This document shows, in pieces, positions 861 to 19,979 of a DNA stretch of 34,070 nucleotides; the first letter of the stretch is position 1, and every line of letters starts with the position of its first letter. The stretch is from NCBI GenBank assembly GCA_016930445.1, contig JAFGGT010000058.1, forward strand, positions 1 to 34,070. The letters run 5' to 3'. The position numbers and the translations under genes were made by a program. Below the pieces are notes generated by a model. The model worked only from the letters and a program-made list of their open reading frames with translations. It did no database searches and was not told the origin of the DNA. The stretch comes from Candidatus Methanofastidiosia archaeon (GTDB lineage Archaea > Methanobacteriota_B > Thermococci > Methanofastidiosales > NM3).

Positions 861-1034
861 CTAAATGACCCTTTGGAAAATAGGGTAAATAGGATATCGC
901 GATGACAATGGCGACATGAAGCCACCATAACTACGCTTGTGAAGGGGTTTCATATTCTCGCATATCTCTATGCTTGATCCTTCCAAGTCCAGGAATCTGT
1001 TGAGCGCGGCGGCCTCTGAGTATGATGCCCCCAT
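861..1034 (-). CDS. Possible small protein (57 aa) directly after the radical SAM gene
   Basis: ATG at 1032-1034, 2 nt after the radical SAM stop codon; TAG at 861-863; MGASYSEAAALNRFLDLEGSSIEICENMKPLHKRSYGGFMSPLSSRYPIYPIFQRVI. Below the length cut-off of the ORF track. Confidence 0.35.
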   Translation of the reverse strand: MGASYSEAAALNRFLDLEGSSIEICENMKPLHKRSYGGFMSPLSSRYPIYPIFQRVI

Positions 1035-1036
1035 GC

Positions 1037-2188
1037 TCAATCGCCTTCACTCATTTGTCGCCCTCCGCCATAGATGAGCTTCTCATAGTACTTTGATGCC
1101 CCCGTCTCGATTATCTCCATGATGATCTCCCTGGTCCTTTCCCCAACACCACGTATCGAGCTCAGATCGCTTTTTGGCCCCAAAGGGGCCTCTATCTTGG
1201 ATATCTCATACGCTGCCCGGCCATAGGTGGGCCGCGACCCCCTGAGGCTCAGAAGATAATCGATGTGCTCAAGGATCACTATTATGGTGTCGTTCACACC
1301 TAGAAGCCCCTTATATAGGTGTGGCGGCATCCTCAGAGGTATTCCATGATCCTTTGCCAGGCCATAGAATCTTTTCTGAATGCCGTCGTAATAATCCCCT
1401 GCCGCATTTCCCCATCTATCGCCTGGATACAATCCATCGTACCTCTCAACAAGGTCCGGGGCATTCTCCCTAAGGACATCGTAGAAATGCTCCTTCTGCC
1501 TCCCATCCTTCAATGTCATTCCTCCAAAGATGATAAAATCGGCATCCACATCCTTGGCCGCCTTGAGGCATTGGTCCAAGTGCGACTCATCATCGGTAAG
1601 GAACGGGATCACAGGTAGCAGGAAAATCCCACAGGGTATGCCCCGCTCCTTGCATTTACTGATGGTCTCGAGCCTTTCAGAAGGCAGGGGCACTCCAGGC
1701 TCGAATATGGAGCCCAGCCCGTCATCGGCCGATGAGAAGCTAAAGCTTACAACTGCCCCCTTTCTAGCGGCTATCCTCTCTATTATGTCCAGGTCCCTCT
1801 CGACCATTGTGGACTTGGTCAATATGTGCGCAGGATGATTGAACTTCAAAAGCAGCCTAAGGGCGCCCCTCGTCAAGAGATACTTCTCCTCCAGTGGCTG
1901 ATAGCTGTCACCGACACCGCCCCCCACCATCATGTAACCCCCTTTGAAAGAGGTCCTCTTCCTTCTGGGATCGAGCTCGCGCTTTAGGACATCCATGGCA
2001 TTTATCTTTACTGTCACATCGCGTCCGAACTCGCCTTCGACCCTGTAGCCCTCTGCCCTTCCATCACAGTATGAACAGTTATGTGCGCATCCCCTGTAAA
2101 GGTTCATCCCATACCTTGAGAGAAACCATGAGTCTATCTTCTTGTGTTTGAGCAGGATGGTCTTTGAGCTAATCTCGGTGACTGTCAT
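1037..2188 (-). CDS. SplB/COG1533-like radical SAM protein with a C-terminal helix-hairpin-helix segment
   Basis: 383 aa; CX3CX2C in 'YRGCAHNCSYCDGRAEGY'; 'DVTVKINAMDVLKREL'; C-terminal 'LSSIRGVGERTREIIMEIIETGASKYYEKLI' resembles a Pol X-type HhH. Confidence 0.85.
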   Translation of the reverse strand: MTVTEISSKTILLKHKKIDSWFLSRYGMNLYRGCAHNCSYCDGRAEGYRVEGEFGRDVTVKINAMDVLKRELDPRRKRTSFKGGYMMVGGGVGDSYQPLEEKYLLTRGALRLLLKFNHPAHILTKSTMVERDLDIIERIAARKGAVVSFSFSSADDGLGSIFEPGVPLPSERLETISKCKERGIPCGIFLLPVIPFLTDDESHLDQCLKAAKDVDADFIIFGGMTLKDGRQKEHFYDVLRENAPDLVERYDGLYPGDRWGNAAGDYYDGIQKRFYGLAKDHGIPLRMPPHLYKGLLGVNDTIIVILEHIDYLLSLRGSRPTYGRAAYEISKIEAPLGPKSDLSSIRGVGERTREIIMEIIETGASKYYEKLIYGGGRQMSEGD

Positions 2189-2994
2189 TTTAGCACATAT
2201 CTCCTTTTTTTGTATTTATATTCATTTACGCCCAGCAGTCTCATGACCTTTTCCGGCCTCTCCTTCACCATATTGCGGCAAGCCCGATAAGCTATCCAAT
2301 ACGAGTCCCTATTGCCCGTTGCGGCAAGTTCCTCCACTATTTTGAGCACAATTTCAGGCAGCTTCTTTGACAGGTCGCTGAGATTGTTCCCGATGGAGGT
2401 TCGCGGGTAGCTATTATGTTCTCTGAAAAGCCCCCTGAGAACTGACAATGGGTATTCAGGCTCCTTGTAGAACCATTTGTTCTCCTTCACGGGGCGCAGC
2501 GTCTCGGCAACGAATCGCCTGAGCATCGGGTCCGGCGACCTTGACCAGCTCGAAAGATGCTTTCTGGCATCTTCTGGGTGGCCCTTTATGACCCGCCTGA
2601 AAAAGAACTGGGCAAGTTCCCGCATGTTCCAATCATCTGATGCGGCCGCCGACTCAAAGTGCGGGATAACACCATGAATATCTTCTATTCCAAGGTTCGC
2701 AATGATCCCCAGAACGACCCCCTTCACCCTATGGCCCTCTGAGCCTTGAAAGAGACTGGAAGAGATTTCCAATAACGAAGGCTCGCCCTTTAGGCAGGAG
2801 TAGAGATGATCGCTCAATGTGTCTATGACATGCACTATGCCATAACTCGTCCTCTTATCCCCTGGTATCCTTGAATACATCTCGTCGACAATGCGTCCTA
2901 TGCCCTCCATGGCGCTCCCTGTTTCCCATTGGAGGGCCGGGATCACGACATCGTTCTCTATTTCTGTTTCGAGCCTTTCGTCGATAAGGTCCAT
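2185..2994 (-). CDS. HEAT-repeat protein of the AlkD/AlkC DNA-alkylation-repair type
   Basis: 269 aa all-helical; 'NMRELAQFFFRRVIKGHPEDARKHLSSWSRSPDPMLRRFVAETLRP...SVANxL-like NNLSDLSKKLPEIVLKIVEEL' arrangement. Its TGA overlaps the next gene's ATG (ATGA). Confidence 0.6.
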   Translation of the reverse strand: MDLIDERLETEIENDVVIPALQWETGSAMEGIGRIVDEMYSRIPGDKRTSYGIVHVIDTLSDHLYSCLKGEPSLLEISSSLFQGSEGHRVKGVVLGIIANLGIEDIHGVIPHFESAAASDDWNMRELAQFFFRRVIKGHPEDARKHLSSWSRSPDPMLRRFVAETLRPVKENKWFYKEPEYPLSVLRGLFREHNSYPRTSIGNNLSDLSKKLPEIVLKIVEELAATGNRDSYWIAYRACRNMVKERPEKVMRLLGVNEYKYKKRRYVLK

Positions 2995-3071
2995 ATATAA
3001 AGGATCGACATCGCCATTTATCCATTTATCTTGGGGAACTCTTAATAATCAGTGATGTCTAGTCTATTACG

Positions 3072-4112
3072 ATGCCGAACAGAAAGGAGGTTGGCGCACC
3101 GCCAGGCACATTGGTCCACGTGGGAAGGAAAAAGGCACAGACTGTGGCAATAAGGCAATTGTTCTACAATGCCGATGATTTTGAGGATATCGAAATAAAA
3201 AATCTTGATGAACTGAAACGTGCCAAGAAGGGCATGAACTCCTGGATAAACGTATCGGGCATCCATGAAATTGGCGTGATAGAGAGCATCGGCAACTATT
3301 TTGAAATCCATCCACTGGTCCTTGAGGACATACTCAACACCGAGCAGCGCCCAAAGCTGGACGAGTACGACGACTACGTGTTCATAGTCATCAAGAGCAT
3401 CTCCTCGTTCGACCCCGAAATCGATCATGAGCAGATAAGCATAATCCTCATGGAAAATCTCGTGATAACGTTCCAAGAGGGACTGGAGAATCATCTTGAT
3501 GGCCTGATGGAGCGGCTGGCCAAACACCAGGGGCGATTGAGGACCCACGGAAGCGACTATCTGGCATATGCTGTGCTCGACACCATAGTCGACAAGTATT
3601 TCCTTCTCTTGGACCATTATTCATCGGTCATCGAGGGCTTGGAGGTCAAGATAATAGATTCTCCCTCAAAGGACATACTCTCCAGGATCCAGAAGCTCAA
3701 GAAACAGATAGCGGACATTAGAAAGACAATGTATCTGAACAGGGAGATAATCGGCAGATTCGAGAAGATAGACACCAGGATCCTGGATAGCTCGACGCTC
3801 CCCTACGTTCGGGATGTGCACGATCACACAGTACAGATACTTGAATCGTTCGACAACTACAGGGAGATCCTTTCAGGCCTTTTGGAGATATACCTGTCCA
3901 ATCTGAGCAACAAGATGAACGAGGTCATGAAGGTCTTGACGATCATAGCCACCATCTTCATACCCCTCTCGTTCATAGCAGGCGTTTTTGGGATGAACTT
4001 CGCCCATATGCCGGAACTGGGATGGAAGTACTCTTATCCGATAGCCCTTATCTCCATGCTGATAATCGCCCTCTTCATGCTAAGATTCTTCAGCAAGAAG
4101 GAATGGATCTAG
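3072..4112 (+). CDS. corA: CorA family magnesium/cobalt transporter
   Basis: 346 aa; two C-terminal TM helices with the GMN motif ('IAGVFGMNFAHMPEL'). Confidence 0.93.
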   Translation: MPNRKEVGAPPGTLVHVGRKKAQTVAIRQLFYNADDFEDIEIKNLDELKRAKKGMNSWINVSGIHEIGVIESIGNYFEIHPLVLEDILNTEQRPKLDEYDDYVFIVIKSISSFDPEIDHEQISIILMENLVITFQEGLENHLDGLMERLAKHQGRLRTHGSDYLAYAVLDTIVDKYFLLLDHYSSVIEGLEVKIIDSPSKDILSRIQKLKKQIADIRKTMYLNREIIGRFEKIDTRILDSSTLPYVRDVHDHTVQILESFDNYREILSGLLEIYLSNLSNKMNEVMKVLTIIATIFIPLSFIAGVFGMNFAHMPELGWKYSYPIALISMLIIALFMLRFFSKKEWI

Positions 4113-18402: not shown

Positions 18403-19188
18403 TTGGCCAGCCACCTCACGACGAATCAGGCCATAATTTTCTGCGAATGCCCAAGGAAGTACTATCTGAGGCACATTAAGGGCGCCAGTCCATCCTACGA
18501 CCAAGCGCATGTTCTGGACATGGCCAAGGCAAGGGCATTTCTGGCGCTGTTTAAAAACGAGAGAAGATTCCTGTCTGAAGTTGGGGATCAATCTGAGCTT
18601 CGGGAATGCTATGCCAGATGCCTGGACATGGCCATAGCTACATCCATATCCCAGTCCGCGCCACATATCATGGGCGCTGACCCTAAGGAGATGGAGGCCC
18701 ACATCGAAAGGGAGCTTGAAGTATTTCTTTTGGGGAGGATTGAGAGGGCAAAGAGACATATGGGCACCTTCGGCATCACCGGCGAGGAGCTGGCAATCTC
18801 GGTCACATATCCTCCAGAGGATGTTGGAAGGAGGGTAGTTGACTTCAAGCACCGGATCTCCGGAAGGATATCGCTCATTCATGCAGAACCTGACTTCGCC
18901 CGCCCGATACAGATAAGCACTGCCATGCCCCCGATGAAAGGCATCTGCAAGGGGGAAGAGATGGCCGCGAAGATGAACGCCCTGCTCCTGGAAGAGCTAG
19001 TGGGGCGCCCTGTGGTTGCCTCCTCGATACACTACCTCAAGATATCCGAGACACGTTCAATTGCCATAGGCGAGTCCAACAAGGAGGAGGTAAAGTCATT
19101 CGTGTCACAGGTGACAGGCAAATGCGACTTCGAGAAGAGCTCTGGCGCATGCGCCTTCTGTGAGGTGAGGGGGGAGTGCGGGCAATGA
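18403..19188 (+). CDS. Cas4/RecB-like protein with an apparently degenerate nuclease active site
   Basis: 261 aa, TTG start abutting the nadC TGA; 'FCECPRKYYLRHIKG' and C-terminal CX2CX5C ('CAFCEVRGEC') match Cas4-type Fe-S cysteines. The nuclease-motif positions read GRIS / IQIST / EEMAAKMNALLLEE. Confidence 0.65.
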   Translation: MASHLTTNQAIIFCECPRKYYLRHIKGASPSYDQAHVLDMAKARAFLALFKNERRFLSEVGDQSELRECYARCLDMAIATSISQSAPHIMGADPKEMEAHIERELEVFLLGRIERAKRHMGTFGITGEELAISVTYPPEDVGRRVVDFKHRISGRISLIHAEPDFARPIQISTAMPPMKGICKGEEMAAKMNALLLEELVGRPVVASSIHYLKISETRSIAIGESNKEEVKSFVSQVTGKCDFEKSSGACAFCEVRGECGQ

Positions 19189-19979
19189 TAACAGTGACCG
19201 ACCTCTGTGACTACGTTTGGTGCCCCTACCAGGTCTATCTTAAGAAGGTCAAAAAGATCAGGCCCCCGCCCACTCCGCAGATGGTAAGGGGCACGGTGAT
19301 CCACAGCATCAAGGAGGAGGTATCCAAGAGGGAGAGGATACTTGTCTCCAGCCACATATCCGAGGGCTCGAGCCTGGACGAGATAAGGAAGTGCATCTTC
19401 GATAATGCGATGCGATGCGCCAAGAACGTCATCCTAAAAGAGAGGCAAGGGCTCGAGGCGCAGGGGGTCGATCCTATGGCCCTCCTTTCGGAACTAAAGT
19501 CCGACTTCCACTATGAGAGCATTGCCAGCGCCGCAAGGCTGAAGAGGCTTATCGAAAGAATAGGGCTTGGCGCTGCAATTGAGATGACATATCCTGAGCA
19601 GGAGGCCGAATTCGTGCTGGAGGACAAGGAGCTCGATCTCAGGGGCAGGATAGACTGCTTTGAGCAGGTAGGTGGGATGAGCATACCGATAGACTACAAG
19701 TCGGGGAACATGCATGAGGATGTCACGCCATCACAGAGGATGCAGATAAGCGCATACGCCGTGATGATGGAGAGGAGCATGAACACGAAGGTGCCTCTTG
19801 GGATAATAGAGTACACGAACTTTGGGCGCCTGAGGCCCGTCATAGTTGATGACGAAGCGAAGGAAGATGTTTACAAGACGCTTGAAGCTGTAAAAAGGAT
19901 CGTATATGGAAAAGAGGAACCTGAAAAAAATATAGGAAAGAGATGCAATTACTGCTCTTTCAAGGAATATTGCATCTAA
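19185..19979 (+). CDS. Cas4/RecB-like PD-(D/E)XK nuclease with Fe-S cysteines
   Basis: ATG at 19185 overlapping the previous TGA (ATGA); 'WCPYQVYL', 'RGTVIHSI', '[10 protein letters not shown]...IPIDYKSG', '[10 protein letters not shown]', '[10 protein letters not shown]'. Confidence 0.85.

Follow-up and report, generated by a model that had tools for sequence, protein, structure and literature searches.

Genes for SplB-like or HhH-bearing radical SAM proteins have already been described in association with DNA repair genes, being coupled to UDG, DinB, ImuB-C or NreB. COG4277 also bears an HhH motif, and the COG4277/COG1573 UDG–radical SAM operon presumably corresponds to the NCBIfam models TIGR03914 and TIGR03916 (rSAM_link_UDG). 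In bacteria, the UDG operon COG1573–COG4277 and the COG1533 SplB gene are under SOS control, and COG1573–COG4277 has been described as a putative system for base excision (PMC8565304), with related contexts described in PMC3765255; both studies tie bacterial SplB-type and UDG-linked radical SAM genes to SOS repair (PMC3765255, PMC8565304).

In archaea, the adjacency of NreB and SplB genes has been published by Giroux and MacNeill (2016, PMC4929162), who suggest a role in intra- or interstrand crosslink repair and raise in print the question of what archaeal SplB-like radical SAM proteins act on; NreA mutants show mitomycin C sensitivity (PMC4929162). Here, we analyse a pair of overlapping archaeal genes, one HEAT-like and one encoding a radical SAM protein, for which an earlier note had proposed an undescribed two-enzyme repair unit. 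That novelty extends to coupling with HEAT-like, AlkZ-like or endonuclease III-like glycosylases, of which we found no report in the open-access literature searched, but not to radical SAM coupling with UDG, DinB, ImuB-C or NreB.

Organization and distribution of the gene pair

The pair lies on the minus strand of the window, by which we mean the whole 34,070-nt stretch of DNA that was analysed. The first gene, HEAT-like, spans positions 2185–2994 (ATG at 2994, TGA at 2185, 269 aa) and the second, encoding the radical SAM protein, positions 1037–2188 (ATG at 2188, stop at 1037, 383 aa). Reading of the sequence confirmed the previously proposed ATGA overlap of the two genes at 2185–2188 on this strand. 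We consider both ORFs to be real genes because they match Pfam DNA_alkylation and Radical_SAM above the cut-offs and because an orthologous overlapping pair is present in another archaeon. The source genome is unfinished (1.24 Mb in 120 contigs, 84% complete) and encodes archaeal-type EF-2, RNA polymerase and GAPDH, these families having been named by reading the translations.

A divergent corA-like gene starts at 3072. A TATA-like TTTATATA at 2994–3004 (minus strand) extends into the annotated start codon of the HEAT-like gene, so that the true start or the promoter may be elsewhere. Farther along the window, at 18403–19979 on the plus strand, two genes overlap, of which the second encodes a Cas4/PD-(D/E)XK nuclease and the first, without a Pfam match, ends in a Cys-rich tail resembling that of the Cas4 gene; the two may form a diverged Cas4-like pair.

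The radical SAM gene is followed by a small ORF (861–1040, minus strand), which begins 2 nt past the radical SAM stop when read from the ATG at 1034 (57 codons, stop at 861) or at an alternative TTG at 1040 (59 aa). When a profile built from five AlkZ-like proteins of archaea was run by hmmsearch against the window translated in six frames, it matched this ORF at profile positions 349–384 of 388 (E 4e-5 in that search). The match covers the last 36 profile residues alone, a complete HTH_42 protein with the catalytic motif is absent, and the source genome has no other AlkZ-like (PF06224) match. Since it resembles the C-terminal 36 residues of AlkZ-like proteins, the ORF is probably the C-terminal remnant of such a gene, as far as a short match can tell; if so, the locus would once have held a second glycosylase beside the radical SAM gene. 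The ORF had been listed as part of the operon; its start 2 nt after the second gene holds, but we reject it as a third conserved gene and unit member given this AlkZ match and the finding that nothing corresponds to it behind the radical SAM gene in the second archaeon described below. About 50 nt farther downstream, on the same strand, a PAS-domain gene (PF13596, 402–809) shows no sign of membership in the HEAT/radical SAM unit.

In the Bathyarchaeota MAG G115, contig JAFGLT010000097.1 carries a HEAT homologue with 45% identity that runs off the contig end, and a second contig begins within the same gene and continues into a radical SAM gene with 56% identity to that of the window. The HEAT gene is therefore split over two contigs that share 118 nt at their ends, with 2 mismatches, and the two genes overlap by 20 nt. 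These alignments indicate that the overlapping pair is conserved in a distant archaeon, as the earlier note had asked of its proposal. None of the 114 other genomes in the source's phylum set yielded the HEAT protein, which may therefore be a recent acquisition. Radical SAM orthologues in G259 and G331, which at about 55% identity are the closest after that of G115, have no HEAT neighbour, so the HEAT partner is dispensable. No relatives of either protein were found in the viral contigs searched. Plasmid and phage records contain distant radical SAM and AlkD/AlkC homologues; four plasmid neighbourhoods that were inspected, one of which lacked annotation and one of which had dnaE nearby, revealed no glycosylase neighbour.

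The two encoded proteins

The 269-aa protein matches PF08713 (DNA_alkylation) just above the cut-off (23.3 versus 21 bits), and phmmer against the PDB retrieved AlkC (5vhv/5vi0, E 1e-8) and AlkD2 (E 4e-6). An AlphaFold2 model, computed with one relative alone in the alignment, has a mean pLDDT of 87.5. All five Foldseek matches to this model below E 0.001 are AlkC or AlkD2 (E 1.8e-4 to 7e-4, TMq about 0.6), and AlkD ranks next, mixed among generic solenoids. Sequence and predicted structure together assign the protein to the AlkC/AlkD HEAT-like glycosylase superfamily, in agreement with the AlkC/AlkD likeness and the structural match anticipated for it. With AlkC and AlkD2 as top matches and AlkD following among the solenoids, we reject a phycocyanin-lyase-type or other non-DNA HEAT family, the assignment that the earlier note had named as fatal to its proposal.

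The catalytic residues are Trp109/Asp113/Trp187 in AlkD (PMC8626424) and Glu121/Glu156 in AlkC (PMC11514114). An hhalign comparison with an archaeal AlkD-type alignment places DWNMRE of the window protein on the W-x3-D motif, making W122-N-M-R-E126 (2617–2631, minus strand) the presumed active-site motif, equivalent to AlkD Trp109-x3-Asp113. In the phmmer alignment to 5vi0, E164 within R159-R-F-V-A-E164-T-L-R-P168 (2491–2520, minus strand) is equivalent to AlkC Glu156. An ungapped HMMER alignment puts Q129 opposite AlkC Glu121; we prefer E126 over Q129 as the catalytic acid because of the motif and its spacing. Both E126 and E164 are retained in the G115 homologue.

With AlkC from Pseudomonas fluorescens (5vi0/5vhv), the protein shares the fold and the RR-x3-E-x2-RP and NNLxD motifs, its own NNLSDL motif being AlkC-like, and with AlkD from Bacillus cereus it shares the fold and the W-x3-acid motif; identity to AlkC/AlkD is about 20%. 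It is shorter than AlkC (269 versus about 360 aa) and lacks the C-terminal extension beyond the HEAT domain, which is included in the about 360–380 aa of AlkC proper; its end falls approximately where the extension begins in the proteins of L047 and L048. It differs from AlkD by a Glu for the Asp of W-x3-D and by an Asn at the Trp187 position. We interpret these features as the signature of a separate subfamily between AlkC and AlkD with predicted base-excision activity.

The 383-aa protein matches PF04055 (Radical_SAM) at 52.7 bits, above the cut-off, and the NCBIfam models Rv2578c and PA0069 at 176 and 142 bits, both far under the equivalog cut-offs of 430 and 360. We classify it from these profiles as a COG1533-type radical SAM protein nearest to the Rv2578c/PA0069 families, with which it has the entire radical SAM core in common and from which it differs by an extra C-terminal HhH domain, the model match stopping at residue 283. 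The three Cys of the [4Fe-4S] cluster motif C34-x3-C38-x2-C41 (2066–2089, minus strand) are invariant in 17 relatives; no further Cys is conserved across the 17, C186 being kept solely in the four nearest orthologues. Modelled without an alignment, the protein reached a pLDDT of 39.8, and a scan for PCNA-binding motifs found none.

The second gene had been described as SplB-like and linked to photoproduct repair. A radical SAM core with the [4Fe-4S] motif is indeed shared with SplB, but the catalytic Cys is missing and the Pfam SPL score of 12.5 bits is under the cut-off of 27. The column of the catalytic H-donor Cys140/141 of SPL, located via the mutant structures 4fhg/4fhe (Ser or Ala at Cys140), is occupied by V92 in the window protein, which also has no match to TIGR04070 (NCBIfam). 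We therefore reject a true spore photoproduct lyase, and UV repair is not to be assumed.

Residues 299–363 form a helix-hairpin-helix domain (HHH_8, PF14716, 31.1 bits, cut-off 30; 1100–1294, minus strand) that is found in 10 of the 17 relatives. A profile of all 17 retrieves the 8-kDa domains of DNA polymerases lambda and beta (E 4e-4 to 6e-4), among them that of Pol lambda 1nzp (E 3.7e-4), pointing to homology with the 8-kDa domain of DNA polymerases beta/lambda/X. The column of the Schiff-base Lys (Pol beta Lys72, Pol lambda Lys312) holds I355 in the window protein, and no relative with an aligned residue there has a Lys. A dRP-lyase function is rejected for want of a Lys72 equivalent, I355 at this position making DNA binding likelier than lyase chemistry.

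Radical SAM genes beside other repair genes in archaea

Beyond the HEAT pair, AlkD-like genes are coupled to COG1533-type radical SAM genes in at least three further lineages. Such pairs occur in G084 (4-nt overlap), in four genomes of one genus (G005, G006, G008 and G011; 8-nt overlap in G005 and G011), in G425 (8-nt overlap) and in G276, where the genes stand in the opposite order and the contig ends within the radical SAM gene. The W-x3-[DE] motif is present in every radical-SAM-paired HEAT protein whose sequence was inspected. At one G006 locus (L175, 2824–3563), the AlkD-like partner looks broken (partial ORFs of 96 and 105 aa) beside an intact radical SAM gene, a state that may reflect misassembly.

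In G006, G008, G011, G012 and G014, an AlkZ-like (PF06224) gene precedes a second radical SAM gene, these five being the AlkZ-like genes found in this genus within the phylum set. In G114 (L027), the radical SAM gene overlaps the start of a downstream HhH-GPD endonuclease III-like gene. COG1533-type genes are repeatedly found next to genes for glycosylases that represent three unrelated folds, and the idea of the earlier note that the two window genes are coupled as a repair unit gains support from this repeated association of the same radical SAM type with glycosylase genes. Other repair genes are also found as neighbours: a second COG1533-type gene of G115 (L043, 1435–3412) overlaps a Y-family (DinB/Dpo4-type) polymerase gene by 14 nt, and in G020 and G019 (L014/L017) FEN1 (XPG) and an ORF that apparently encodes an ATP-dependent DNA ligase come after an HhH-bearing radical SAM gene.

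Several of these neighbourhoods contain additional genes. At five loci (L019, L020 and L023–L025), genes for an AlkZ-like glycosylase, a radical SAM protein and an NAD(P)H-FMN-reductase-like flavoprotein form a tight run, with 4–58 nt gaps or an overlap before the radical SAM gene and 3–12 nt behind it. The flavoprotein may serve as electron donor for the radical SAM cluster. The radical SAM gene of L014/L017 overlaps an upstream oxidoreductase-gamma-subunit-like gene by 4 nt, that of L027 also overlaps an upstream 503-aa ORF, and in G179 and G180 (L182 and L183) a CxxCxxCC (PF03692) metal-binding gene lies 27–28 nt before a related HhH-type radical SAM gene.

On a quick tree of 69 radical SAM proteins, in which long branches were flagged, no fewer than 5 changes of the HEAT-paired label are required under well-supported branches, so that the pairing was gained or lost repeatedly. 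A radical SAM gene is missing beside most of the archaeal AlkD genes examined. With about two such radical SAM genes per about 1,800 genes and about 125 DNA_alkylation loci inspected, chance would account for about 0.2 adjacent cases (a rough estimate, no formal test), versus cases in at least four lineages.

Proposed function and comparison with known systems

We propose, with a probability of about 60% and on the strength of gene and protein comparisons, that the two genes form an archaeal DNA-repair unit in which base excision is combined with radical-based lesion processing. The genes are translationally coupled; the glycosylase and the radical SAM enzyme would be produced jointly and probably target one kind of DNA damage. 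Its family (AlkC, AlkD, YtkR2) leads us to predict for the HEAT protein an excision activity on purines with cationic N3/N7-alkyl or bulky adducts, following the AlkC/AlkD route without base flipping. The radical SAM protein would reach the same damaged DNA via its HhH domain and apply a 5'-deoxyadenosyl radical to a lesion that the glycosylase cannot finish, by reversing alkyl or crosslink adducts, by processing an unhooked monoadduct or by acting at the resulting abasic site. Its substrate, at a guess, would be crosslinks, bulky or alkyl adducts, or the post-excision product: elsewhere its partners belong to the AlkZ/YcaQ/AlkX family, which unhooks crosslinks (PMC7367128, PMC13303869), or to AlkD/YtkR2, which act on bulky adducts (PMC8626424), and the published NreB–SplB adjacency likewise led to the suggestion of crosslink repair (PMC4929162). 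If true, the proposal would provide a repair strategy for anaerobes, where O2-dependent direct reversal (AlkB) is unavailable. A decidedly doubtful extension would make HhH-tailed COG1533-type radical SAM proteins an oxygen-independent counterpart of AlkB that, in anaerobes, reverses alkyl or crosslink DNA adducts through radical chemistry, while the partner glycosylase, exchangeable among the AlkC/AlkD, AlkZ, endonuclease III and UDG types, sets the lesion range.

The HEAT protein could instead be a non-catalytic DNA-binding adaptor, like AlkD2/AlkF, that guides the radical SAM enzyme as the sole chemist. The presence of AlkD2, which is no alkylpurine glycosylase (PMC4433238), among the top PDB matches by both sequence and fold fits this explanation, as do the Asn at the AlkD Trp187 position, shared with AlkC, and the Glu in place of Asp in W-x3-[DE]. 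We nevertheless consider it unlikely: E126 and E164 (AlkC Glu156) are both retained, in the G115 homologue too, the classical W-x3-D persists in the AlkD-like partners from other genomes, and the AlkZ-like and endonuclease III-like partners elsewhere come from families that include catalysts.

It is quite unlikely, in our assessment, that the two genes have no functional relationship, with a radical SAM protein that modifies RNA or a metabolite and a pairing that is an accident of horizontal transfer. Gene overlap in both lineages that hold the HEAT/radical SAM pair, the recurrent association of such radical SAM genes with glycosylases of three folds, with DinB and with FEN1, and an HhH domain resembling that of X-family polymerases all argue against such an accident, which would agree with the G259 and G331 orthologues that lack the HEAT gene, the patchy distribution of the latter, the unrelated neighbours of many COG1533-type relatives and the lack of an established function for the Rv2578c and PA0069 families. 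It is extremely improbable that the radical SAM protein repairs UV damage as a genuine SPL-type enzyme while the HEAT protein deals with alkylation on its own. The profile of the 17 relatives does find SPL structures (E 2.4e-3, residues 18–186) and 5 of the 17 match TIGR04070 weakly, but V92 occupies the Cys140 column, the relatives have no extra conserved Cys, the Pfam SPL score stays at 12.5 bits against 27, and archaea are not known to contain spore photoproduct (PMC4929162).

The repeated coupling to glycosylases of unrelated folds, which underlies the preferred reading of a joint repair unit, is a concrete, testable clue to the substrate of the radical SAM protein. The SOS system that governs the bacterial operons is not expected in archaea. 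In the NreB–SplB pair, as at this locus, an archaeal SplB-like radical SAM gene adjoins or overlaps a DNA-repair gene, but the partner there is Nre, which has no known activity and is no glycosylase. The radical SAM protein of the window has no match to TIGR03916 (rSAM_link_UDG) at E <= 1. With the UDG–radical SAM operon, the window pair shares the coupling of a DNA glycosylase gene to a radical SAM gene, whereas the glycosylase is of the UDG type in that operon and HEAT-like here.
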